From Dichotomocladium elegans (Eukaryota > Mucoromycota > Mucoromycetes > Mucorales > Lichtheimiaceae), in the NCBI GenBank assembly GCA_025716815.1, contig JAIXMN010000018.1:62001-126000 (forward strand): a DNA stretch of 64,000 nt. Reading direction: 5' to 3'. The number at the start of each line of letters is the position of its first letter. Positions within the stretch are counted from its first letter, which is position 1. Below the pieces are notes generated by a model that had not been told where the DNA came from, did no database searches, and saw nothing but the letters and a program-made list of their open reading frames with translations. The translations under genes were made by a program, and so were the position numbers. Below are positions 1,092 to 60,820 of this stretch, piece by piece.

Positions 1092-4000
1092 ATGAAGCAA
1101 CGATTCAATGCCCTTGACATTCGTGCTACTGTCATCAATTTTCGGGAGCGGTAATGATACTGTCGTCGTACGCTTTCAGCAAGCTGCGTATAACTAATTA
1201 GACAACCTAGGCTCATTGGTCTTCGGCTCCAAAACATCTACGATGTCGACTCAAAAACATTCCTCCTCAAGTTTGCAAAGGTCAGCCTGTCTTCGATCTT
1301 TCAGATCGTGTATTTTTCCCCGAGCATTGGTTGGCTTTGACTGACACAGTGAATACAGCCGGATGACAAGGAACTTGTTCTAATCGAGTCGGGTACACGT
1401 CTGCACAGCACTCAGTTTAGTCGAGAGAAGCAGATAACCCCTTCGATGTTCTGCGCAAAGGCATGTATTCCACCCAGGTTTGAGCAGCATCGAGAAACTT
1501 TCACTAACCTACTAATGTCTCTCTATTAGCTTCGAAAATATTTTCGCACACGACGGCTTACGAACGTCCGACAGGTGGGCGTTGACCGCATTGTCGACTT
1601 TGAATTTGCTGCAGGCGACAAGAGTTTCGAGTATCATATCATTGCAGAGTTTTACGCACAGGTTAAGTCTCGAACCTTGCTATTGCAGCCTCTTCGGGGT
1701 GTACGCATGGCTGCATGGGTGACTTAATTTGGATGTGTAGGGTAACATTATCTTAACCGACGAGAGCTACAAGATCCTGGCAATTCTCCGAGTTGTCAAT
1801 TCGGATGACGTTAAGATGGCCGTAGGCGAAACCTATAAAATCGAGAATGCGCTTCCTGACTTCCAGAAGCTGGACGCAGAGAAATTGCAAGCCGCATTGC
1901 GCAAGGCAGGGCCAAAAGATACTCTAAAAAAGGTCCTTAATATGGCCTCAGGTTAGTCTGGAGCACAGAAACAAGATATAGATTCCGAGAACTGGGAGAA
2001 AGAAACATGCACTAATCAAAATATTTATGCAAAAGAGTATGGACCAGCTATGGTGGAGCATGTCATCTTGCAAGCTAAACTCAATCCAAACCTGAAAGTG
2101 GCATCCGAGTTTGATTCGTCTGATGGTAAATTGAAAGGACATCGACTCAAAGATTTCATTGCTTATCTGTATGCTAGACTCTCCATCCCTGAAGGCGCTT
2201 ATTGAAGCTTTCAAGGAGGCTGATTCCATGGTCGAATCTACAAAGAGCAATGTGCCGAAGGTAGAGCTGCAGATGCGGTGCTTTCTCGAAAGTCAAGATT
2301 GACTGATAGACACTTTATAGGGCTATATTATCTTACTAGAGAAAGAGAAGAGGGGTGATGCTCAACAAGAAGAGATTGAAATGTAAGCCATCCTGAGGGA
2401 TTCCAGTGGTCCGATTATGTTGCTGATTGAGCTGTCTAGCTATGACGAGTATCATCCGTACCTGTACAAGCAGCACGAAGCGAGAAAGCACAAAGAGTTT
2501 AGTACTTTTGATGCAGCAGTAGATGAGTTCTACTCAGCAATCGAGGCTCAGAAGATTGAATTGAAGGCAATGCAGCAGGTAAGATATACACATGACAGAT
2601 ATTTCAAAACGACAGCGGTTCACACTAGGGTCTCAGGAACAAACTGCTATGAAAAAACTAGAAGCGGTGCGAAAGGAACAAGAGAGCCGTATTCAGGGAC
2701 TTTTAAGCCAGCAGGTGACAAATGTTCGAAAAGCGCAACTCATTGAATTCAACCTGGACATGGTGGATGCCGCGATCACAATCATCAGAAATGCGATAGC
2801 TAGTCAGATGGACTGGGTGGATCTGAAAGAACTCGTCCTCCAAGAAAAGAACCGGGGCAACCCCATCGCGCAAATGATCGATGATCTCAAACTAGCAACT
2901 AGTCAGATCACCTTATTGCTCTCGTATGTATTCTACAGATGCATGCGGCACACAAAACGTCGCGTAGAATAACATGACATATCGATAGTGCTCCAGAGGA
3001 TTCCGATGAAGGTTCGGATGAAGAGAGCGACGAGTCGGATGACAATCGCGAATCAGCGCCTCAGCAAATTAAGGTTGATATCGATATTGGATTAACTGCC
3101 TATGCGAATGCACGAAAATACTATGATCAAAAGCGTAGCACAGCCCAGAAGCACGAAAAAACCATTGCTGCATCCTCCAAGGCACGTTTCAAATTACAAA
3201 TGGTGTCTGTGCTATGCTCTAGATTCGTGTTAATATTTGAAGTTTTAGGCTTTGAAATCTGCCGAACGCAAAATTAAGAAAGATCTGAAGGAGACGAAAA
3301 TCACCACAACCATCAACAAGATTCGCAAGCCTTTCTGGTTTGAGAAGTTCCTCTGGTTCATCTCTACCGAAAATTTCCTAGTGATAGCCGGTCGTGATAT
3401 GCAGCAGAACGAGATGTTAGTCAAGCGATATCTTCGCAAAGGCGAGTTTTACTTCTTCGATAATCTAAACGTATCCTAACCTTTGCATCTCTTTCTCTGA
3501 CAACACATCAGGCGATGCGTATATTCACGCAGATTTACATGGTGCAGCTACCGTGATTGTCAAGAATAAGCCGGAAAACGAAGGAAATCCGATTCCACCC
3601 AGTACACTGTTCCAGGCAGGCATCATGTCTGTCTGCCAAAGTAAAGCATGGGACGCAAAGATTGTGACCAGTGCGTACTGGGTTCATGCCGACCAGGTAA
3701 TCCTCGTGAAACCATTATGGCTCCGCAAGCATTAAAGGGATTAATACCCGATGAATAATTAAGGTTTCCAAATCTGCTCCGACGGGTGAATACCTGACCA
3801 CCGGCAGCTTTATGATCCGAGGCAAAAAGAACTTCTTGCCTCCGGTTCAGCTCGTTTATGGTTTTGGCTATCTTTTCAAGCTCGATGAGTCGTCTATCGG
3901 AAACCATGTGAAGCGCAATGCTGAAGAAAATGAGCAGGATAATGATAATATCGCGGCTGTGGCGACAAAAGGTGCAAGCACTGCTCCGAGCGCGGCAACA

Positions 4001-6153: not shown

Positions 6154-8943
6154 ATGATGTCTTCTTCCACTTTTATGCGGGCCGCTAAGGTAAGCGAGTG
6201 GCCAATTACTGCCGCCGCCCATTTGCATATATTTGTGCTTATCCTTTTGCACACGCACACATGAAGGTTGTTGCCCCTGCTATTCGCTCTATTCCTTCGC
6301 GAACATATTCCCAGGCCGCTGGTACCTGGGCGAACCAAAAGGTGGCCATGTCGAATCTTGAAAAGGACAAGTATATCAACTACCAGAGAATTGAGGATAA
6401 CCTTGCTATTGTTCGCAAAAGGTAAGTGACACGACTTCATTTGTGAAGGGCATATGCAGCGGCGAAAGATCGAGTGGCAAAAATTCTGATGACAAAAAAA
6501 AAATAAACGATAGATTGAATCGTCCCTTGACTCTCTCTGAGAAGGTTGTCTACGGTCATTTAGACGATGCTCACAACCAGGACATTGTGCGCGGGAAGTC
6601 CTATCTCAAGCTCCGACCCGACCGTGTTGCATGCCAGGATGCCACCGCCCAGATGGCTATACTCCAGTTTATGTCAGCCGGTCTTCCTACTGTTGCCGTC
6701 CCCACCACTGTGCACTGCGACCATTTGATCCAGGCCCAGGTCGGCGGTCCCCAGGATTTGGCCCGTGCAATCGATATCAACAAGGAAGTCTATGACTTTT
6801 TGGCCACCGCCTCTGCCAAATACGGCATTGGTTTCTGGAAGCCAGGCTCTGGTATCATTCACCAGATCATTTTGGAGAACTATGCCTTCCCTGGCGGTCT
6901 CATGATCGGTACTGACTCCCACACTCCCAACGCTGGTGGTCTTGGCATGGTGGCTATTGGTGTCGGCGGTGCTGATGCTGTCGATGTCATGGCCGGCATT
7001 CCCTGGGAACTCAAGTGCCCCAAGGTCATTGGTGTGAACCTTCACGGTGAGCTCAGCGGCTGGACTTCAGCGAAGGATGTCATCCTGAAGGTCGCCGGAA
7101 TCTTGACTGTCAAGGGCGGTACTGGTGCTATTGTCGAGTATCTCGGTGATGGTGTCAACTCCCTGTCATGCACTGGTATGGGTACCATCTGGTAAGTTAA
7201 TTCATCTTGTTTGTATCAATTAAAAGCGCGGCTCATATCCATGCGTTTGATTTCACCTGCTACCCCATCACACCCCTTATTCTTATTATAGTAACATGGG
7301 TGCTGAGGTAAGAAGAGAACAAGGAAATCGTGATATCATCGGCTTTTACTAAAGGTGACTGTTTATGTTTTAGATTGGTGCCACGACTTCCATGTTCCCT
7401 TACAACCAACGCATGCATGACTACCTCCGCGCAACCAACCGTGCGGATATAGCAAAGTACGCAGATGCATTCAGCCACAACTTGCGCGCAGATGAAGGCG
7501 CCAAGTACGACGAGATGATCGATATTGATTTGAGCAAGCTTGAGCCTCACATCAACGGTCCCTTCACCCCCGATCTTGCCACGCCTATCTCCAAGTTCAA
7601 GGAGACTGCTATTAAGAACGACTGGCCCCGAGAGCTGAAAGTTGGTTTGATCGGCTCCTGCACCAACTCGTCCTACGAAGACATGGCCCGCTCTGCCTCG
7701 CTTTGCCAGCAGGCTATCGACCACGGCTTGAAGGCGAAGTCTATTTTCACTATCACTCCAGGTTCCGAGCAGATTCGTGCTACCATTGAACGCGATGGCA
7801 TCATGGACACCCTGACCAAGGCTGGTGGTGTTGTCCTTGCTAACGCTTGCGGTCCCTGCATTGGCCAGTGGGATCGTCGTGACATTAAGAAAGGTGACAA
7901 GAACTCTATCATCACCTCCTACAACCGTAACTTCACGGGTCGTAACGATGCCAACCCTGCCACCCATGCTTTCGTTGCTTCGCCTGAGATCGTCACTGCT
8001 TTGGCAATTGCTGGTGACATGACCTTTAACCCGCTTACTGATTCCCTGACCGACGCGAATGGCAAGCCTTTTAAGCTTCAGCCACCCAAAGGCGACGATT
8101 TGCCCTCCAAGGGGTATGACGCTGGTGAGAATACTTATCAGGCTCCTCCCGCGGACCGCAGCAATGTCTCTGTTGCCGTCTCGCCGACCTCCAACCGTCT
8201 TCAGCTCTTGAAGCCTTTTGAGAAATGGGATGGCAAGGATATTAAGGATATCCCTATTCTGATCAAGGTTAAGGGCAAGTGTACGACCGATCACATCTCT
8301 ATGGCCGGTCCCTGGCTAAAGTACCGTGGCCATCTGGACAACATCTCCAACAATATGTTGATTGGTGCTATCAACATTGTGAACGGTAAACATGGAATGG
8401 AATGGAATGGTGATATCCTGACGGAACAAAACAAAACTGACCAAAACAAAAAAAAATGCGGGGTGGGGTGCATATCTAGGTGAGGCAAACAAGGTCGAGA
8501 ACGTTTTTACCCATGAGTTTGGCGGTGTTCCTGATGTGGCCCGCGACTATAAGGCTCGTGGTGTGAAGTGGGTTGTCATCGGTGACGAAAACTATGGCGA
8601 GGGCTCTTCTCGTGAACACGCTGCGCTCGAGCCCCGCTTCCTGAACGGAGCTGCCATCATCACAAAGTCGTTTGCTCGTATCCACGAGACCAACCTGAAG
8701 AAGCAAGGCATGCTTCCTCTCACCTTTGCAAACCCAGCTGATTATGACCGCGTCCAGCCCGACGACCGCGTCGACATTGTGGGTTTGACTGAATTCAAGG
8801 AAGGCAAACCCTTGACGCTCCGTCTCCATCATAAGGACGGCAAGACAGAGGACATTACTCTCAATCACACTTTTAACGCTGGCCAGATTGCCTGGTTCAA
8901 GGCTGGTTCTGCTCTCAACCTCATGCGCGAGCAGTCCGCTTAG
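6154..8943 (+). CDS. ACO1: Mitochondrial aconitate hydratase
   Basis: Six exons encode an aconitase of the mitochondrial class, which isomerises citrate to isocitrate in the TCA cycle with a [4Fe-4S] cluster. The start [12 protein letters not shown] is followed by a basic, Ser-rich presequence (SIPSRTYSQ), a typical matrix-targeting signal. Cluster-ligand motifs are intact: one Cys in the [10 protein letters not shown] motif and two in ACGPCIG. The substrate-binding [11 protein letters not shown] and the C-terminal swivel-domain [14 protein letters not shown] are present. One exon is only 16 nt (7292-7307), joining the TI|CNMGAE|IG coding sequence. All donors are GT. The 344-codon open frame on the opposite strand is a codon-bias shadow. 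Strong codon bias suggests high expression. Confidence 0.97.
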
Positions 8944-14400: not shown

Positions 14401-17400
14401 TGATTCAGTTATTAATATGAGCAAGTGATTGATACCTCTTTTCTTTTTTCTTTTCTTTTTTTTTCTTTTTTTTTTTTTTTTAAAAAAAAACATAGGTTCT
14501 ATGCTGTACTGCAACCTTGGCTTGGGGTGTCAATTTGCCCGCTTATGCGGTTGTGATCAAAGGAACGCAGGTGTATGATTCTCAAAAGGGTAGCTTTGTG
14601 GATCTTTCCATCCTTGACGTACTCCAGATTTTTGGTCGCGCAGGTCGTCCGCAAGTAAGGAAAAGCGTTCATCTTCATGATGGTTTAGATACTGACAGAT
14701 GGATGTATGCAGTACGAATCTCAAGGCGTGGGCTACATCTTGACGACGCAAGACCGACTGTCACATTATGTATCAGCGATCACTCAGCAGCACCCAATCG
14801 AATCAAAGTAAGTAACTACAGAGAAGTGATGTTGCTAGTTTCCTGGGACTGAGAGATAACGTTTAGGTTTATTGAACATATTGCGGATAATTTGAATGCC
14901 GAAATTGCACTTGGTACTGTGACGAACGTTGACGAGGCAGTGACCTGGTTAAGCTACACGTACCTGTATGTACGCATGAGGAAAAACCCGATGGTATATG
15001 GCATGGATCACTCTGAGCCGGTAGAAGATCCTCTGCTGGGCCGAAAGCGCCACGAGATCATCGTGCTGGCAGCGCGTCGGTTAGCAAAATGCCAAATGAT
15101 CATCTTTGATGAGAGCACAGGCTATCTGACTCCAAAGGACCTCGGTCGAATCGCCTCGAACTTCTATATTCGGCACACGAGTATCGAGATTTTCAATGAT
15201 TTCATGAAGCCACGCATGACCGAGGCAGACGTGCTGTCGATGATGAGTTTAAGTTCCGAGTTTGACAATATCAAGTCGCGCGATACGGAACATAAGGAGC
15301 TGAAGGGGCTCTTGGATAACGCGTGTGCGTGTGATATCCGGGTAGGTCTTTGAACAAATACAATATCTGCAATCCTGAACACAATGGGTGATTCTAGGGC
15401 GGGCCAGATTCGACGCACGGCAAGGTGAATATCCTTCTGCAAGCCTACATATCTTCGGCACGCATCGACGACTTTGCGCTCATCTCAGACTGTGCATACG
15501 TTGCACAGAATGCGGGTCGCATTGCCCGTGCGCTCTTTGAGATTGCGCTCAATCGGAACTGGGGACCTACGGCCTACATCCTGCTCTCTGTCAACAAGGC
15601 TATTGAAAAGCGGATGTGGACATTCCAGCACCCTCTGCATCAGATGGGTCTCCCCCGCGAAATTTTGGATAAGCTCGAGTCGCGCACACACGAGGTTTCG
15701 ATTGAGGAGATGCGGGATATGGAACCTGCAGAGCTCGGGGAGCTGGTGCACCACGTCCGTATGGGCAACACCCTGGCGAAATGCGTGGATCAGTTCCCGA
15801 TGCTTCAACTCGACGTTCGTATTGCGCCTATTACGCGGAACGTGCTCAATGTAGAGTTGACAATCACGCCCGATTTTATCTGGAACGACCGAATCCACGG
15901 TTCGGTTGAACCTTGGTGGATTTGGGCCGAAGACTCGGAAAACGTCGAGATTTACTACTCCGAGTACCTCTTGTTCAACAAGAAACAATTTGGAGAGAGT
16001 CTGAAGATCATGTTCACTGTTCCGATAGTTGAACCATTGCCTGCGCAGATCTACATTCGCGCTGTGTCGGATCGATGGTTGGGCGCCGAGACCATCTTGC
16101 CAGTATCATTCCAGCACTTGATCTTACCACAACTGAATCCGCCTCACACCGATCTTCTGGACCTTCAGCCCCTGCCCATAACTGCCCTGCATGACGAGGT
16201 ACTCGAGGCCATCTGCGCAAAACGCTTTACGCACTTCAACCCTGTCCAGACCCAGATTTTCCACACATTGTACAATTCAGATCATAATGCACTTGTGGGA
16301 GCACCGACCGGCTCGGGTAAGACTGTGGCAGCTGAACTCGTTTTATGGTAATGTTACATCTATAGATATATATTATACGGGTAATCTGGGAGGCTCACAT
16401 AAAAAAACGCGCATGAACATATGTATTGTCAACAGGCGTGCGTTTAGGCAGTACCCCAGTAGCAAGGTGGTTTATATTGCGCCAATGAAGGCGTTGGTCA
16501 AGGAACGAGTGTCTGACTGGACCAAGCGATTAACGGGTCCGATGAACAAGAAGCTGGTGGAATTGACAGGTGACGTGACACCGGATCTGAAGACGATTGA
16601 GTCCGCGGATATTATCATCACCACGCCGGAGAAATGGGACGGCATCAGTCGTAGCTGGCAGACTCGGTCGTACGTGCGCGAGGTGTCGTGCGTAATCATT
16701 GACGAAATCCACTTGCTCGGCGGTGACCGTGGCCCGATTCTGGAGGTGATTGTATCACGCATGAATTATATCGGCTCCCAGCTCGAGCGCAAGGTTCGGA
16801 TTGTGGGACTTTCTACTGCGCTGGCCAATGCGAATGATCTAGCAGATTGGTTGGGCATCAAGAAGGTCGGCTTGTTCAACTTTCGGCACTCGGTTCGCCC
16901 TGTTCCTCTGGAGATCTATATCGATGGTTTCCCCGGAAAGCATTATTGTCCTCGCATGGCGACCATGAATAAGCCGACGTACGCGGCCATCAAGACGCAT
17001 TCACCAACACAGCCTGTGATTGTCTTTGTATCATCACGTCGCCAGACGCGCCTGACAGCCCAAGATCTGATTGCGTATTGTGGTATGGAGGATAATCCGC
17101 GTCAATGGCTGCATATGGACGATGCGGAACTGGAGATGTTGTTGGAAAGCGTCCACGATGAATCGCTCAAGATGTCTCTCGCATTTGGTATCGGGCTTCA
17201 CCATGCCGGCCTGACCGAAGACGACCGGCGGATTGTGGAGGATCTTTATCTGAGACTGAAGATCCAGATTCTCATTGCGACGAGCACGCTTGCATGGGGC
17301 GTCAATCTTCCGGCCCATCTGGTGGTTCTGAAGGGCACAGAGTTTTACAACTACAAGGTAGGACGGTACGTCGATTACCCGATCACGGATGTTCTGCAGA

Positions 17401-19027
17401 TGATGGGCCGAGCGGGTAGACCCCAGTTCGACAATACGGGCATTGCACGTGTGTTTGTACAAGACAGCAAGAAGAACTTCTTCAAGAAGTTCCTGCACGA
17501 GCCATTCCCGGTCGAGTCGAGTCTGCATAAATTCATGGACGACCATATTAATGCGGAGATTGTGGGCGGGACGATTAAAACAAAACAGGACGCAATCGAC
17601 TATCTGACCTGGACGTACTTCTACCGCCGTCTGCAGCAGAACCCGACTTATTACGGCCTGGACGACATGACCCAGCGTGGACTCGACACGTATCTGTCCA
17701 ACATGATCAATGATGTGACGGACCGGCTGGCCAAGTCTGGGTGTGTTGAAGTCGAGGAAGGGTTTGAGCTTTTCCCGACGATTTTGGGGCGTATCGCGTC
17801 GTACTATTATCTACGCCATCAGTCCGTGCGCCATTTCAAGGAGCGTATTGACCAGGATGCCGGGATGGATCAACTCCTCGATGTGATGGCCCACGCGCCC
17901 GAGTATGAGGAGCTCCCAGCGCGCTGTAACGAGGATCTACTGAACCAGGAGATTGAGAAGCACATTCCTTATAAAGTCAAGGGAGCGCGCGATTTCAAGA
18001 CGCCGTATGTCAAGGCATACGTGCTGACTCAGGCTCATATCAGCCGGCTTGAGCTGCCGATCTCTGATTATATTACGGACCAAATCACCGTGCTCGATTC
18101 GTCGATTCGTTTTTGCCAGGTAAAGAAAAAAAAAGACGCTAGCGTGTGGACCTTTTTTTTCAGCAGCTGAATGGATCGACTTGAAACAATATTAGGCCAT
18201 GATTGATGTGGCAGCCGATTCAGGCTACTTGACCACTACGCTCAATATTATGACGATGCTTCAGGCGATCAAACAAGCGCACTGGCCCGAAGAATCGACG
18301 CTCCTGACACTTCCACACATCAAGCCACGGATGCTGCATGCGATCAAACACAAGGTAGCATATATATATATCCCTTTTCGATGATGGTGTGCTCTAACCA
18401 CGGGGCGGCCGTTTGGCCTCTTTAGAACAAGCGCATCGAATGCTTGGCCGAATTGTTAGGTTTGACGGACAGCCAAACCAAGACCATCTTCAACAAGGTT
18501 CCTGGCCTGGGACCGACACAGATCAGCGAGGTAAACGCAAAAAAAAGGGGGGGGGAGTTTGTGTGTATGTGTATCTATTGATCGATAGGTACTGAAACGC
18601 GTTATAGATCCAACGGGTGGTTAGCCGGCTTCCGCTGATCCATATGAAGGCAAAGATTGAAACGAGCAAGCCATACCTGATTCCCGAAACGACGTACAAG
18701 GTCCAGATTCAGCTGATCCGCGTCGGCCAACAAAAGAACCATGATGGGCGTGTGTACTGCCCGAAGTTCCCAAAACCCCAGTATGAGTCGTGGTGGCTTA
18801 TGATGGGCGATGCCGAGACGGACGAGCTTCTTGCACTGAAACGCGTGAGCATGCGGAATGGGCCGAATGAGACGCTGACAGACAAGTCGACGAGTGTCAT
18901 TTCGTTTGATACACCAGCCCACCTCGGAAAGCACACGTACACACTTTATCTCATCAGCGATGGCTATCTTGGACTCGATCAGCAACTGGATCTAGAATTT
19001 GAAACACGTGTTGATCTAGAATCGTAG
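11408..19027 (+). CDS. ASCC3: ASCC3/Slh1 tandem Ski2-like helicase (RQT complex)
   Basis: About 22 exons encode a two-cassette Ski2-like RNA/DNA helicase colinear with human ASCC3 and yeast Slh1 from N- to C-terminus. It is the ATPase of the RQT/ASC-1 complex that splits collided ribosomes; in animals it also serves AlkB-dependent DNA repair. Cassette 1 has [40 protein letters not shown] and [10 protein letters not shown]. Cassette 2 has [30 protein letters not shown] and [12 protein letters not shown]. Each is followed by a winged-helix and Sec63 domain ([11 protein letters not shown]; ...[10 protein letters not shown] at the end). DEAD-box-type DEVH and DEIH boxes are both intact, so both cassettes look active. 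The N-terminus is acidic ([15 protein letters not shown]). The ATG at 11408 follows an in-frame TGA; ATGs at 11414/11417 are alternatives. Intron 12236-12303 uses a GC donor. Confidence 0.96.
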
Positions 19028-25153: not shown

Positions 25154-26612
25154 TCACTTTGAAAGATCCGAGGAGAGGCCATGTCCAAAATTGAGAACCA
25201 TAATGCGTTTGTCGTATCCTGCACTGATGACGGTGGTGCGGCCCATGAGCACGCAAAAGATTCTTCCTTCGTGTCCGCTTTGGAAATTGACAGCGCATCT
25301 GCCTGTCTGCGTATCCCATATCTTGATTACCTTGTCATATCCAACCGTGACAACTCGGTCCTACAACCCCTCCAATTGGTCAATGACGATATGTATTTCC
25401 CCCCCCCATCTCCCCGGCTTGAATGTTTTCCTTTGTTACCTCGATCGCATCCAGGCAACGCATCAAGTCTGTATGGCCTGAAGGAGTGGTCATTGTTCGG
25501 ACATCTCCATCCGATGACCATATCTGGATACGATGATGTATTATCCCACCTGCCCAAATCGTGCGCTCGCGTTCGTCTACCACCACTTGCAGGCAGGAGA
25601 TCCCGCCAATCTGGCTTTCCAGCGTCTGCAGGCAGCTCCCTGTAGCAGTACACCAGATCCGTACCGTTCCATCCGCAGACCCGGAGACAACCCGATCGTC
25701 GCTGCCAAGTACCTTGACGACGTTCACCGCGCCAGTATGGCCACGTAAAACATGCAACGTATCGCCCCTCAACACATTCCAAATACATAAGGTGGCATCT
25801 CGCGAGCCTGTCACCACAACGTCATTGTGGATGAACACGACCGACATGACGCTTTGATCGTGATGCTTTGTGTATCTTTGCAGTTCGTTGCAGCTTTTGT
25901 TCGATTGAACAGACCATACGATGCACGATCTGTCAGATGATCCCGTCACGGCATATTTTCCGGAGGGTGCTATTGCTACACAGAGAATGCTACCTTGATG
26001 GGATGAGGTGTATGTGGCAAGACATTGGCGGGTGAATATATCCCATATTTTGATCGTCCGGTCACGACTGGTGCTGAGAATGGTCCGATGGTCCAGCCAG
26101 GCAAGCGAATAAATGCAACCTTGATGACCGTCCTTGTCGTCAAGATAATGCACCCGTGCATGCCCCTCCTTCCAGCGCCGACCAAGCGCTTTCCGGTCTT
26201 GGTATAAACGCTCATAATCGGCTGATCGTTGAAACATGTGGAAATCCTCGTAGAGTAGGCTTGACCAAACATGGTTGCTATGACACAATGCATAGAGCGC
26301 GCGAGAGGTCTGTCCGAGACGCAAGATACTGCCAGCGTCAAGAGACAGGAGGATCTTGTGGATGATTTCAAAGGGTAGAGTCTCGAGGGGTAAGCATCGT
26401 TTGTTGTGCTTGTCTATTGCATAACAGTTTTGAAGAAAGACATCTTGAGCACGCATGAATATAGCCTAATGTGCCTGTTGTATTTCTCCCTCTTCTGTAC
26501 CCTTTGTCAGCGATAGCGTCCCATGCATATCGGATAATGACGCTGGTGTCTGTGCAAGTTCTTCAGGGCGCCTTGACCAGAACGTCAATGATTTGGCTTT
26601 TTTGGGGAGCAT
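25154..26612 (-). CDS. F-box / WD40 repeat protein (SCF substrate receptor)
   Basis: Three exons encode an F-box protein with a WD40 propeller, the architecture of substrate receptors of SCF ubiquitin ligases. The F-box is ETLPFEIIHKILLSLDAGSI...VWSSLLYEDF. At least six WD repeats follow, with blades such as TSRDRTIKIWD, GSSDRSCIVWS, GSRDATLCIWN, GSADGTVRIWC and the last GYDKVIKIWD on the final exon. The first exon (26612-26501, start MLPKKAKSLTFW) is joined to KHNKRCLPLETLP by an 87-nt intron (26500-26414, GTACAG donor). This avoids the single in-frame TAG at 26466, and a start at 26456 is the alternative. The last intron is within DAIE|DRVV. Substrate is unknown; it is not assignable to Met30 or Cdc4 from sequence reading. 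Confidence 0.85.
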
Positions 26613-30134: not shown

Positions 30135-32062
30135 ATGGCGCGACGGGAATCTCTTGAGGACGAGCCTTGGCTTCCCATTGAGCCGGATCCGGGTAAATCT
30201 CTTCGCTCATTCGCACACAGTCACGACCTGCCGGCCGAGATCCTCTTGCTGATTGCTTACCTAGGTGCATTCTCGCAACTATGCTCCAGTATGGGAGTAC
30301 AAGGCGTTCAAGTAGAACAAATACACTCACTGAGTCGGGGCGTTTTTCAAACACTCAGGTACACAACTTTTTATTATTATTTCGTGAAAAAAAAAGGAAC
30401 AATCAACAACCGCCGAGACCCGGGTCACTCACCGAACGACTGTGCCCATCTTCTAGACCAGCCCATGGCATCATCCTGCTCGTGCGGCACAAGCCCGAGA
30501 AAAACTTGAGAGATGATGCGTTCGCAACAAACAGCACTAGCCATCCTAACATATACTTTGCGAATCAGGTTGGTACATCCTTTAGTTTTCCTGAATTCAT
30601 GCGACCGCAAATCAAGTAACAACCGGCTTCCACATGTATCTCAGGCTGTTCATGACGCATACGCAATGTATGCGCTACTCAGCATTTTAATGAACTGCGC
30701 CGGATCGATTGATTTGGGTACCGAACTCAATCATATCAAGAACTTCTCTGGAGAATTTCCGCCAACGGTGAGTTCTGCAGCATTTGATAATAGGGTGCTG
30801 GCTACCATCTCCTTGGTTTATGCTGATAACTCTATTTATTATGTGGACCATCGCAACAACAACAACATAAAAGCTCAAAGGACTCAGTTTGACCAACAGT
30901 AAAGTTTTGAAGGATGCACATAATAGCATAGGAAGGTGAAGTAAACAACATCAAACGGATCAGAGGAGGGGAAGACAGAACGGGAGTCCACAGACGATGG
31001 TGATCAAAAGGAAGTTGGCAGAACCACTTACTTCTGCAGGCCTATTAGACGCCGACCACGACGGGTGGTGCACAGGGACGAGATATATCATTACATCACT
31101 TATATACCAATTGGAGGGTATTTATGGGAGTTGGACGGATTCAAAAAGGGACCTGTTCGTCTAGGTAGGGAGTTGGCTAGAAAGAGTCAATATGGCAAAT
31201 AGCTGACAGGTGTACATCATTTAAGCGGCATGTACAGAAACAAATTGGATCGACACGGCCCGCTCCGAACTCCAGCGCAAAATTGACATGTAAGGTGTTC
31301 ATATCCCCAAAGCCCTCTGTTCCTATCTACAAATTTAGCACAGCACTTTCCCAACCCCCCACCTTTCTTTTTCACTAATTCAATGTGACATATACGTCTA
31401 TTAACGGCAGGCTCCAAAAGTATCAAATACCGTTCTCAGTCTGGTCAGTCAACGAAGACCGACGACGTGTCTACAAGAGATTACTCGCAAGAAAGGCGTC
31501 TGTCAAGGACGCGATAGAGAGTCAACTAAACAGTCAGGAACCCAGCTGGCGTGAGGCTATCCAGGCTCAACAATGGGATGATGAATATGGGCACGCAATG
31601 AATGCTGTAAGTACTTCCCAGAAAAGCCTAAAAGGTACATATGAGCTTAACCGAGCCACACAAAGGAAAGATGTAAGCGAGAAACAGGAATAGATCCCAT
31701 CTACACCTACTCTAGGTCAATTGATGAGCTTCCTGAACATGAACGCGCAGAACTCCAAGCGGAGCTAAAATCAAGTGTCCAAGGCCGATCCACTCAGGAA
31801 CTGATGGATCTCTGGCTCCAAGTTCAAGATGACTCATTGAGGATCTACTCGCGTCTTAACGACGAGCTCGAAAAGCATCAGAGATACGAGGTAGATTGTT
31901 AATAGAAGACCATATCGGGCAATGAGATATTGAATTAACCCTGTAACTTTACAGCGCGATATGATGCTTCGCCAGCATGATTACACGCCATTTATCAAGT
32001 CTTATATCAAATGTCTTGTCGCAGGCGGACATCTGCAACGGATTGTTGCAGAATACCTCTAG
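30135..32062 (+). CDS. UCH37: UCH37/UCHL5-family protein with catalytic Cys replaced by Tyr
   Basis: About ten exons encode a protein colinear with UCHL5/UCH37 (fission yeast Uch2), the ubiquitin C-terminal hydrolase of the proteasome lid/Rpn13 and, in animals, of INO80. The N-terminus has WLPIEPDPGAF and GVQGVQVEQIHSL. The active-site segment reads NQAVHDAYAMYALLSILMNC where the family has a Cys (N/S-A-C-A-T-x-A); the Tyr codon is 30660-30662. The oxyanion Gln (NQ), the His (IYHYITYIPI) and the Asp (WELDG) are conserved. After the UCH core comes a coiled region and the C-terminal ULD-like tail (RQHDYTPFIKSYIKCL) used for Rpn13 binding. The whole gene is open and normally spliced, so it is not a decayed pseudogene. 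The splice site near 31610-31680 is uncertain. It is predicted to be a catalytically dead proteasome-associated subunit. Confidence 0.85.
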
Positions 32063-49623: not shown

Positions 49624-50994
49624 ATGACAACAAATCTCGATCGCCGATCCCTTATTCTTGGTGTCATTTCAGGTTCTCTCCTAACGCTTATTACGAGTTT
49701 GTATCTGCTTTGCCCCCGGGAACAGATAGCCGAACCGGAGGGATATGCTGATGGCGTCGATGGTCTCATTGGAAACACGCCGCTGATGCGAATCAAGAGT
49801 CTGTCCGAAGCAACGGGATGCACGATTCTGGTACAGAGAGGGAGCGAGCAAGCATGTTAATCTCTTCCGCTGGCTTAATATATTATTTGTTCAACAGGGA
49901 AAAGCCGAGGTAGTAGGATGAACATTGCTTCCATGAGCGCGTGAATTGACAGCTATTTTTGGGTGCAGTTTCTGAATCCTGGTGGAAGCGCAAAGGATCG
50001 TGTTGCGCTGAATATCATCCGGTCCGCCGAAGAGGCTGGGATCCTGAAGCCGCACACAGGCAGCACGGTCTTTGAAGGGACGGTGGGATCAACGGGAATC
50101 TCGATTGCCATGATTGCCCGCGCGCGGGGCCACAAGGCGTGGATCGTGATGCCCGACGATCAGGCCAAGGAGAAATACCAGCTCCTGGAAAAACTCGGTG
50201 CGACGGTCGAAAAGGTACGACCGGTAAGCATTATTGATAAGGGCCAATTTGTCAATCGGGCACGAGCACGGGCGGCCCAGTTTGGCGACGGAGAAGAGGT
50301 CAAGGGCTATTTTGCAGACCAGTTTGAGAACGAAGCGAATTTCAAGGCCCACTACGAAACAACCGGGCCAGAGATCTATCGCCAGATCGGCGACAAATTG
50401 GATGCGCTCGTGCTAGGTGCCGGCACAGGCGGCACGCTCTCGGGCATTGCGCTCTATCTCAAGCCACGTATCAAGAACCTCAAGGTGTTCCTCGCCGATC
50501 CACTCGGGTCAGGCCTCTTTAACAAGGTCAAATATAATGTCATGTATGCTCCGCAGGAGCGAGAAGGCACCCGGAAACGCCACCAGGTCGACACGGTCGT
50601 CGAAGGCATTGGCATTAACCGCCTCACCCGAAATTTTGAAAAGGGCCGTCTGCTCGTAGATGATGCATATAGGGTGACAGACGAAGAGGCCGTCAAAATG
50701 TCGCGTTTCCTCGTGCGCGAAGATGGTCTTTTTGTGGGGAGCAGCTCATCGGTTAACTGCGTTGCAGCAGTGCGTGTTGCGAGAGAACTCGGTCCTGGAC
50801 ATGTTATTGTGACTCTACTGAATGACTCTGGACAGCGGCACCTTACAAAATTCTGGCAAGTGTGATAGTATCTGGGCAGATGGCAGTTCGGCTCATGTAT
50901 GGAATTGTGCATTAGGAGCGACGACTATCTACGAGAGGCTGGGATCCCCCACACGCTAGCTGATGACGAGGGTGTGGATGATTTTATACAGTAA
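49624..50994 (+). CDS. Membrane-anchored cysteine synthase (Mcy1/Cys12-like)
   Basis: Four exons encode a PLP-dependent beta-family enzyme like yeast Mcy1 and fission yeast Cys12, which make cysteine from O-acetylserine and sulfide. The N-terminus has one membrane segment (SLILGVISGSLLTLITSLYLL), so it is probably outer-mitochondrial-membrane anchored. The core has GLIGNTPLMRI, the PLP lysine in NPGGSAKDR, the substrate loop EGTVGSTGIS and the phosphate-binding GAGTGGTLSG; the C-terminal SSSSVNC motif is present. Exon 2 is a 12-nt microexon (49898-49909) coding GKAE. The last intron (50856-50915) uses a GC donor, giving TKFW|SDDYLREAGIP. Convergent with the GH3 gene (75 bp between stops). Confidence 0.92.
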
Positions 50995-59489: not shown

Positions 59490-59890
59490 AGTAAAAAAAA
59501 AGAAAGAATAAATAACAAATCTGGCGGGTTGGGGACAAAGGCATAAATTTTCAGCAATCCAACCAATAAAATGATACCTACGCAGACCAGAGCCGATCAT
59601 TTCAAACGGTCATGCCACACAAGATCAGAAACTTACTGGATTTGCCTTTAAGCACTTTTCTGTTTGGCAATCTTATGTTTCTTATTGTGCGGTCTGGTTT
59701 GACATAAGCCTTTGTTTCTATTGCGGTGTACTACAAGCGTGCTCTGCCTTACTAGGTTCCGATTTTATCCTACCATTATTTTCTGGGCTTTCTGTCCCCA
59801 GCTCAGGGGCGCTTCCTCGCCCCTCCCCTTTTTTATTCACCGTAAAAAAAAATAGCTCGCGGGTCAAAGAAGGAATGCTCATTCTTTCTC
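59490..59890. other. Divergent promoter region, RsfS gene and SDR gene
   Basis: About 400 bp between divergent starts, C- and T-rich near the SDR start; no specific site recognised. Confidence 0.5.
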
Positions 59891-60820
59891 ATGTCTCCAA
59901 AAGTCATTCTCATTACCGGTGGCACGAGCGGTCTAGGCCGTAGTGCAGCCCGAAAGTTCTTAACACAGGGTCATACAGTAGTGATCACCGGACGCAATGA
60001 GGAGAAGCTCAAAACAGCTGCAACTTGGATTAATGCCACTAGCAACAACGGAACTCTTCATTGTATCGCAATGGATCTGAGCAATCTTGCATCGATCGAC
60101 AAGGCAGTGGAAACCCTCCAGTTACTCGATATCACCCCCAATGTGCTCATCAACAATGCCGGAGTCGTGCTCTCGCAACTGCAGTACACCGGAGAGACGA
60201 ATGTAGTAGAAGAAACGATCTTTGTAAACGCGATTGCGCCTTGGTATCTTTCGCTGCGGCTCATACCCCTAATGAAGAAATCATACGCCATCAACCTCAA
60301 ACGCGAAGACAGACCGCGTATTTTGTTCGTCTCATCTTCACTTCATGACCCAGCAAATAAGGGTGGGAAGAGAACGGCTGGAGACTCTCTACCAGAGCAG
60401 GTTAACTTTGACAACCTCGACGGAGCTAAATCCTTCAGCGCAATGCAGTTCTATCGGATATCCAAGATCATCCAGCTCTGGCTTACTTTCTTGCTGGCCA
60501 AGTTAAACCCTGAACTGACCATATTTGCCTTTTCTCCCGGCTTCGTGCCATCAACGGGATTGAACCGCCATTCCAATATTTTAATACGGGTCCTCATGTC
60601 ATACGTCTTGATTCATATGAGCTTTGCAACGACCGAAGATGAAGCAGCAAATGATTATGCTTACTACGCTACTTCTGGAAACGTGGAAGGTGCCACAGCA
60701 GAATATTATCAAAAACGAAATATCTCTGAGAGTTCTGAGGAGTCACGGAATCATGAAAAGGCTAAACGCTTTTGGAACATAACCTGCGACATTTGCAACA
60801 TCGCGCAGCGTTTAGACTAG
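59891..60820 (+). CDS. Short-chain dehydrogenase/reductase (RDH/WWOX-like group)
   Basis: A single uninterrupted exon of 309 codons, the only intron-free complete gene in the window. It is a classical-size SDR with the nucleotide-binding TGGTSGLGRSAARKF, a basic residue after the second beta strand (VITGRNEEKLK) suggesting NADP(H), the NNAGV motif, the catalytic Ser in ILFVSSSLHDP and the YRISK (YxxxK) pair. The C-terminal half (SPGFVPSTGLNR ... EDEAANDYAYYATSG) resembles retinol-dehydrogenase-like fungal SDRs. Substrate cannot be predicted. The lack of introns contrasts with the neighbours, where about seven introns per gene is usual; it may reflect an old retrocopy or later arrival, but base composition is not strikingly different. 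Confidence 0.92.
   Translation: MSPKVILITGGTSGLGRSAARKFLTQGHTVVITGRNEEKLKTAATWINATSNNGTLHCIAMDLSNLASIDKAVETLQLLDITPNVLINNAGVVLSQLQYTGETNVVEETIFVNAIAPWYLSLRLIPLMKKSYAINLKREDRPRILFVSSSLHDPANKGGKRTAGDSLPEQVNFDNLDGAKSFSAMQFYRISKIIQLWLTFLLAKLNPELTIFAFSPGFVPSTGLNRHSNILIRVLMSYVLIHMSFATTEDEAANDYAYYATSGNVEGATAEYYQKRNISESSEESRNHEKAKRFWNITCDICNIAQRLD

Follow-up and report, generated by a model that had tools for sequence, protein, structure and literature searches.

Gene structure and active site

The window, by which we mean the whole 64,000-nucleotide stretch of DNA from Dichotomocladium elegans (Lichtheimiaceae, Mucorales) analysed here (C33:62001-126000, in a searched genome of 39.4 Mb and 122 contigs), contains a UCH37-like gene of ten exons on the forward strand (30135-32062), modelled from sequence and encoding a predicted protein of 388 aa (Table 1). 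Upstream of it by ~3.7 kb lies a gene for an F-box and WD40 protein (25383-26465, -), and the window also holds two overlapping ORFs with Sec63, DEAD and SNRNP200-type winged-helix domains (15398-18167, +), which we take to be Brr2-like, part of an aconitase (7374-8480, +), a PLP-dependent enzyme (49945-50862, +) and a short-chain dehydrogenase (59846-60817, +).

Table 1 Exons and active-site positions of the UCH37-like gene (window coordinates).
Feature	Position	Strand	Remarks
Exon 1, ATG start	30135..30192	+	In-frame join, GT-AG introns
Exon 2, front ubiquitin-site region	30265..30358	+	Human E34/W36 are Gln/His here
Exon 3	30457..30568	+	Last codon is active-site Gln88 (CAG, 30566-30568)
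Exon 4, active-site helix	30645..30767	+	Includes back-side F117/F121 positions
TAC, Tyr94	30660..30662	+	Position of nucleophile Cys (human C88)
Exon 5	30874..30935	+	End is start of active-site (crossover) loop
Exon 6	31040..31164	+	Remaining basic crossover loop
His167	31089-31091	+	Exon 6
Asp182	31134-31136	+	Exon 6
Exon 7	31226..31289	+	Gene model
Exon 8	31411..31606	+	Clade-specific conserved insert with two invariant Trp (31538-31600)
Exon 9	31666..31890	+	Linker and helical part of tail
Exon 10	31955..32062	+	UCH_C tail motif RQHDYTPF (31970-31993) and stop

The exons join in frame across nine GT-AG introns of 59-121 bases each, in agreement with an original prediction, made from the sequence, of ten open exons with normal splice sites; the start of exon 9 was placed by the ERCKRG of homologues. 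That prediction had further held that Tyr replaces the nucleophile Cys, and a TAC codon indeed encodes Tyr94 within the open fourth exon, aligned without gaps to human C88; bases 30645-30701 of this exon read AVHDAYAMYALLSILMNCA. The active-site string quoted in its support stood as a gap-free alignment, but the leading Gln codon belongs to the preceding exon. Gln88, His167 and Asp182 are all retained, as had been claimed.

A 361-aa first-draft protein, which differs from the final model only after the active-site Asp, matched Peptidase_C12 (E 1.1e-44) and then a UCH_C tail (E 4.3e-9); together with the RQHDYTPF motif, the latter match bears out the earlier view that the C-terminal tail is intact. 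The solved-structure chains that best match the window protein are UCHL5, and a UCH37-like fold was predicted for one homologue (P0001). The protein thus has the Peptidase_C12 domain and subsequent UCH_C/ULD tail of UCH37/UCHL5 without the Cys nucleophile and, given the fold predicted for P0001, would match the description of a pseudo-DUB as a DUB fold lacking a required catalytic residue.

A clade of Tyr-type proteins

Two protein searches, listing 18 and 27 proteins, left 25 homologues once two fragments (P0018 and P0027) had been dropped from this and every other count, and these form with the window protein a Tyr clade of 26 members. The P0018 alignment reads DACAS near the site, which we took as non-homologous since the similarity of this fragment to the query covers 20% of the query and lies in another part; P0027, by our own reading, leaves the frame ahead of the site. 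Organism names accompany 24 of the 25 homologues, and the named genera, all of which we take to be Mucorales, are Zychaea, Lichtheimia, Circinella, Rhizomucor, Apophysomyces, Fennellomyces, Gongronella, Backusella, Syncephalastrum, Halteromyces, Hesseltinella, Absidia, Chlamydoabsidia, Gilbertella, Mucor, Radiomyces, Pilaira and Cunninghamella. The labels 'ubiquitin carboxyl-terminal hydrolase', 'ubiquitinyl hydrolase 1' and 'cysteine proteinase' are probably wrong for some of the Mucorales records that bear them. Among the matches listed, two other UCH proteins of D. elegans appeared and no record of the window gene, which may be unannotated or misannotated in the records of this species.

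A non-Cys codon was looked for in the orthologues, and Tyr occupies the nucleophile site in all 25 Tyr-clade rows that have a letter there. As a control, the best 120 of 4,887 hits, which cover both the canonical and the third type (see below), had Cys, His, Asp and Gln in 120/120 and Tyr in 0/120. These 120 included Cys-type UCH37s of Rhizopus, Phycomyces, Umbelopsis and Mortierella, and no Tyr type from these four genera was among the matches listed by a search that depends on shared exact words. Both types were found, by name and among the matches listed, in at least 14 species including D. elegans. As to whether the two genes might be an old tandem pair, Radiomyces was the only one of the 13 others in which the Tyr and canonical genes lay on contigs of the same size.

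This recurrence bears on whether the Tyr codon reflects an assembly error, an annotation error or a decaying pseudogene. The window gene comes from one assembly and its clade evolves faster than canonical UCH37s, as might be expected of such an artefact or relic, but the shared Tyr, the ten open exons with GT-AG introns and the matching of all five canonical introns make this extremely improbable. Error or decay was rejected on the first two observations, the shared Tyr refuting it for the clade as a whole, and the earlier argument against simple decay holds.

In a tree of 62 rows and 338 columns, which contained no BAP1 rows and from which P0006 (without a letter at the His) and P0026 (without one at the Tyr site) were left out, support was 100/99 for the Tyr clade (24 rows), 100/98 for canonical Mucorales UCH37s (19 rows) and 100/100 for a third group (4 rows). 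Internal branch length amounted to 9.1 changes per column in the Tyr clade versus 3.5 in the canonical Mucorales clade. Since Tyr has stayed unchanged over 9.1 changes per column, a freely varying site is hardly to be expected, and the gene appears, at the protein level, to be maintained by selection rather than to persist as a relic. A branch joining the Tyr clade to the third group had support of 95/96 but may be false, because the long branches of both meet there, as the tree program warned. Holding the Tyr clade together with the Mucorales and Umbelopsis canonical UCH37s was disfavoured (AU p 0.03), and a grouping with all sampled fungal canonical UCH37s was not rejected (AU p 0.146).

UCH-type genes in the D. 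elegans genome

A Peptidase_C12 search of the genome returned seven exon matches at four loci, the window gene included. A second, active-type UCH37 copy, for which the original prediction had suggested looking, was found ~39 kb from the window gene (C33:52742-53398, -), with its Cys, and reads QVINNACATQAIL; its product is 100% identical to a recorded D. elegans protein. A further UCH37-like gene, the third, lies at C68:944.9 kb, also keeps the Cys and reads QIVTNICATLALL, and the fourth locus, on C79, was tentatively read as UCHL3/YUH1-like. Each of the five canonical introns has a counterpart in the window gene at an identical alignment column and phase; the window gene is therefore a duplicate with inherited introns and not a retrocopy. 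Two more introns are common to the window and third genes exactly, and one within a column, all absent from the canonical gene; these speak for the joint branch, though the canonical gene may have lost them.

The model of the third gene (C68:942500-947500, reverse strand 1598-3180) includes one GC-AG intron. The F117/F121 positions are changed in 4/4 rows of its group; the gene also has a longer basic loop and an 'AIGN' that we take to resemble BAP1.

Remodelling of the active site and the question of catalysis

Relative to UCH37/UCHL5, the Tyr clade has changed well beyond C88 (human numbering throughout). The neighbours of the Cys are altered, as had been noted for the window protein: T90 is M, V, I or L and Q91 is H or Y, each in 26/26 rows. 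Q82 and D179 are kept in 25/25 rows each, and catalytic H164 is kept in 21/25 and lost in 4/25 (Arg in two, Gln in two). The median length of the active-site loop (human 142-163) is 16 residues (range 14-20, with 4 in model P0006), compared with 24 (22-26) in 51 Cys-type rows, and the net charge of the loop is positive in 19/26 and negative in 7/26, against -2 to -5 in 51/51 Cys-type rows. The window's own loop, with 20 residues and a net charge of +5, is among the longest in the clade. Tail residues are largely kept (R287 in 25/26, H289 in 23/25, P293 in 25/25). Before the tail, the clade has an insert of its own, with Pro in 25 rows and Trp, Trp and Glu in 26/26, at columns where canonical UCH37 has no letters; it is possible that this two-Trp insert is a new binding surface.

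A moved Cys nucleophile was considered and rejected. Columns with Cys in ten or more clade rows are human positions 22 (20/20 rows), 100 and 191 (25/25; canonical UCH37 shares this Cys), plus a column in the linker (15 rows), none of them shown to be catalytic.

The protein might still be an enzyme, using the Tyr hydroxyl or some other residue, or taking a modifier other than ubiquitin as its substrate. We know of no Tyr nucleophile in a UCH fold. The kept Gln, His and Asp count against a non-catalytic reading, as does the precedent of USP53 and USP54, which were annotated as inactive and have been reported to be active (PMC12037411). The Cys 12 residues past the site (position 100) would likewise suit an enzyme, being present in the window protein and 19/26 Tyr-clade rows versus 8/51 Cys-type rows, but 7/26 lack it, and since human UCHL5 carries this Cys as well as C88, it has no known role as a nucleophile. 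The loss of His to Arg or Gln while Tyr stays also argues against continued catalysis, which we consider very unlikely. The predicted pseudo-deubiquitinase is supported instead by a Tyr found throughout the clade, by the presence of an active-type copy in the genome, by the losses of His and by the remodelled loop, and the sequences strongly suggest that the Tyr protein cannot hydrolyse ubiquitin bonds.

Ubiquitin contact

Residues E34, W36 and I216 form part of the front ubiquitin site of UCH37, and F117, F121 and L181 are on its back side (PMC8635973, PMC9033301). The human triple mutant E34K/W36D/I216D is reported to lose most if not all ubiquitin binding (PMC8635973). In the Tyr clade, E34 is kept in 4/23 rows (Gln in the window protein) and W36 is W, Y or F in 0/23 (His in the window protein), so binding of ubiquitin by the usual front site is unlikely. 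I216 is I in 15, L in 5, V in 3 and M in 1 of 26 rows, two having no letter (window, I), and F218, invariant in canonical rows, is kept in 10/26.

These changes are relevant to a proteasome-docked ubiquitin trap that would hold ubiquitin in its front site, like the C88A laboratory mutant of UCH37. The mutant lacks the nucleophile as the Tyr clade does (PMC8635973, PMC6839854), and C88A proteasomes reportedly retain polyubiquitin and RAD23B (PMC8635973); the mostly I/L/V/M identity of position 216 would also fit. Unlike the mutant, however, the Tyr clade is natural and clade-wide, and its front site has changed as well at E34 and W36, while the bulky Tyr would sit, on steric grounds, at the end point of the ubiquitin tail. 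We therefore regard a trap as improbable.

On the back side, F117 is kept in 24/26 rows and F121 in 25/26 (both Phe in the window protein), and L181 is F in 14, L in 10 and V in 1 of 25 rows (window, Phe). F117 and L181 have been called invariant in UCH37 homologues, and an Ala mutant of L181 is also described as lacking K48 chain binding (PMC9033301); in the Tyr clade the stated invariance nearly holds for F117 and fails for L181. The sequence leaves back-side chain contact by the window protein possible, a reading that the Phe at L181 weakens, and F117/F121 may be kept for folding. Of the ubiquitin-binding role originally proposed, the front-site form is thus unlikely, and contact with chains through the back side could still apply.

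Partner and location

UCH37/UCHL5, of peptidase family C12, is bound by RPN13 and INO80G. The genome contains two RPN13 genes. Both the C28 gene and the C79 gene match Pru and DEUBAD (E for the latter 9.0e-26 and 1.9e-11, respectively), and in exon peptides picked by eye the two are identical at 65/88 Pru positions versus 31/83 DEUBAD positions. The diverged DEUBAD could be the one that partners a diverged UCH37. The retained C-terminal tail of the Tyr protein may well dock on a DEUBAD protein, an RPN13 being the likeliest, and docking on the DEUBAD of RPN13 would place the protein at the proteasome.

A scaffold role in a chromatin complex, INO80-like or PR-DUB-like, was weighed against this. 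Searches of the genome for ASXH (PF13919) and NFRKB gave no match, their controls being equally empty. A profile of the clade scored 238 bits with UCHL5, 192 with BAP1 and 169 with Calypso, and so was no closer to BAP1; compared with BAP1, a 729-residue chain, the 388-aa window protein lacks both the nucleophile and the long middle region. These scores and the presence of two RPN13 genes lead us to consider the chromatin scaffold unlikely and a proteasomal location the better inference.

A probable non-catalytic UCH37 paralogue

The nucleophile is missing in the sequence of every Tyr-clade member that has the site, the window gene is open in frame and an active-type UCH37 stands beside it. Because all members share the Tyr change, the protein has probably been kept for a job other than cutting. 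Our preferred reading, which we hold to be probable, is that the gene encodes an old, conserved, non-catalytic UCH37 (UCHL5) paralogue, docked on RPN13 and seen so far in Mucorales only. Its tail would dock on one of the two RPN13s, whose DEUBADs differ. With the front site changed and the back-side Phe pair kept, the protein might hold a DEUBAD place without hydrolysis and might touch K48 chains by its back side without trimming them, and such contact could conceivably limit or redirect debranching by the active UCH37. The faster evolution of the Tyr clade relative to canonical UCH37 counts against this explanation, as do the partial retention of F218, the window loop at the long end of the range and the negatively charged loops. 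A more specific version, in which the Tyr protein sits on the C79 RPN13, the one with the diverged DEUBAD, as a Mucorales non-catalytic UCH37-RPN13 pair, defining a second kind of proteasome with back-side K48 contact and no debranching, is speculative and on present evidence doubtful.

Known pseudo-DUBs resemble the Tyr clade in that a catalytic residue is lost and the protein kept; PSMD7, for example, is paired with an active DUB within the 19S particle (PMC9139131). The same 2022 review places pseudo-DUBs in the USP, OTU, JAMM and MINDY families, and a 2024 review lists UCH and MJD as families without a pseudoenzyme (PMC10919355), both in passages that probably refer to human DUBs. The Tyr clade, being UCH, differs from these placements. 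A term search of a third review (PMC7863924) yielded nothing on UCH pseudoenzymes, and nothing on the Tyr clade was found in the titles and abstract openings of open-licence papers.

The Tyr clade would offer a test of whether the back-side patch can function when the front site is lost. A natural, clade-wide UCH pseudo-DUB beside an active copy would mean that evolution, and not mutants, could separate what UCH37 does at the proteasome by catalysis from what it does there without it. If the non-catalytic UCH37-RPN13 pair is real, the UCH class would have its first described pseudoenzyme system.
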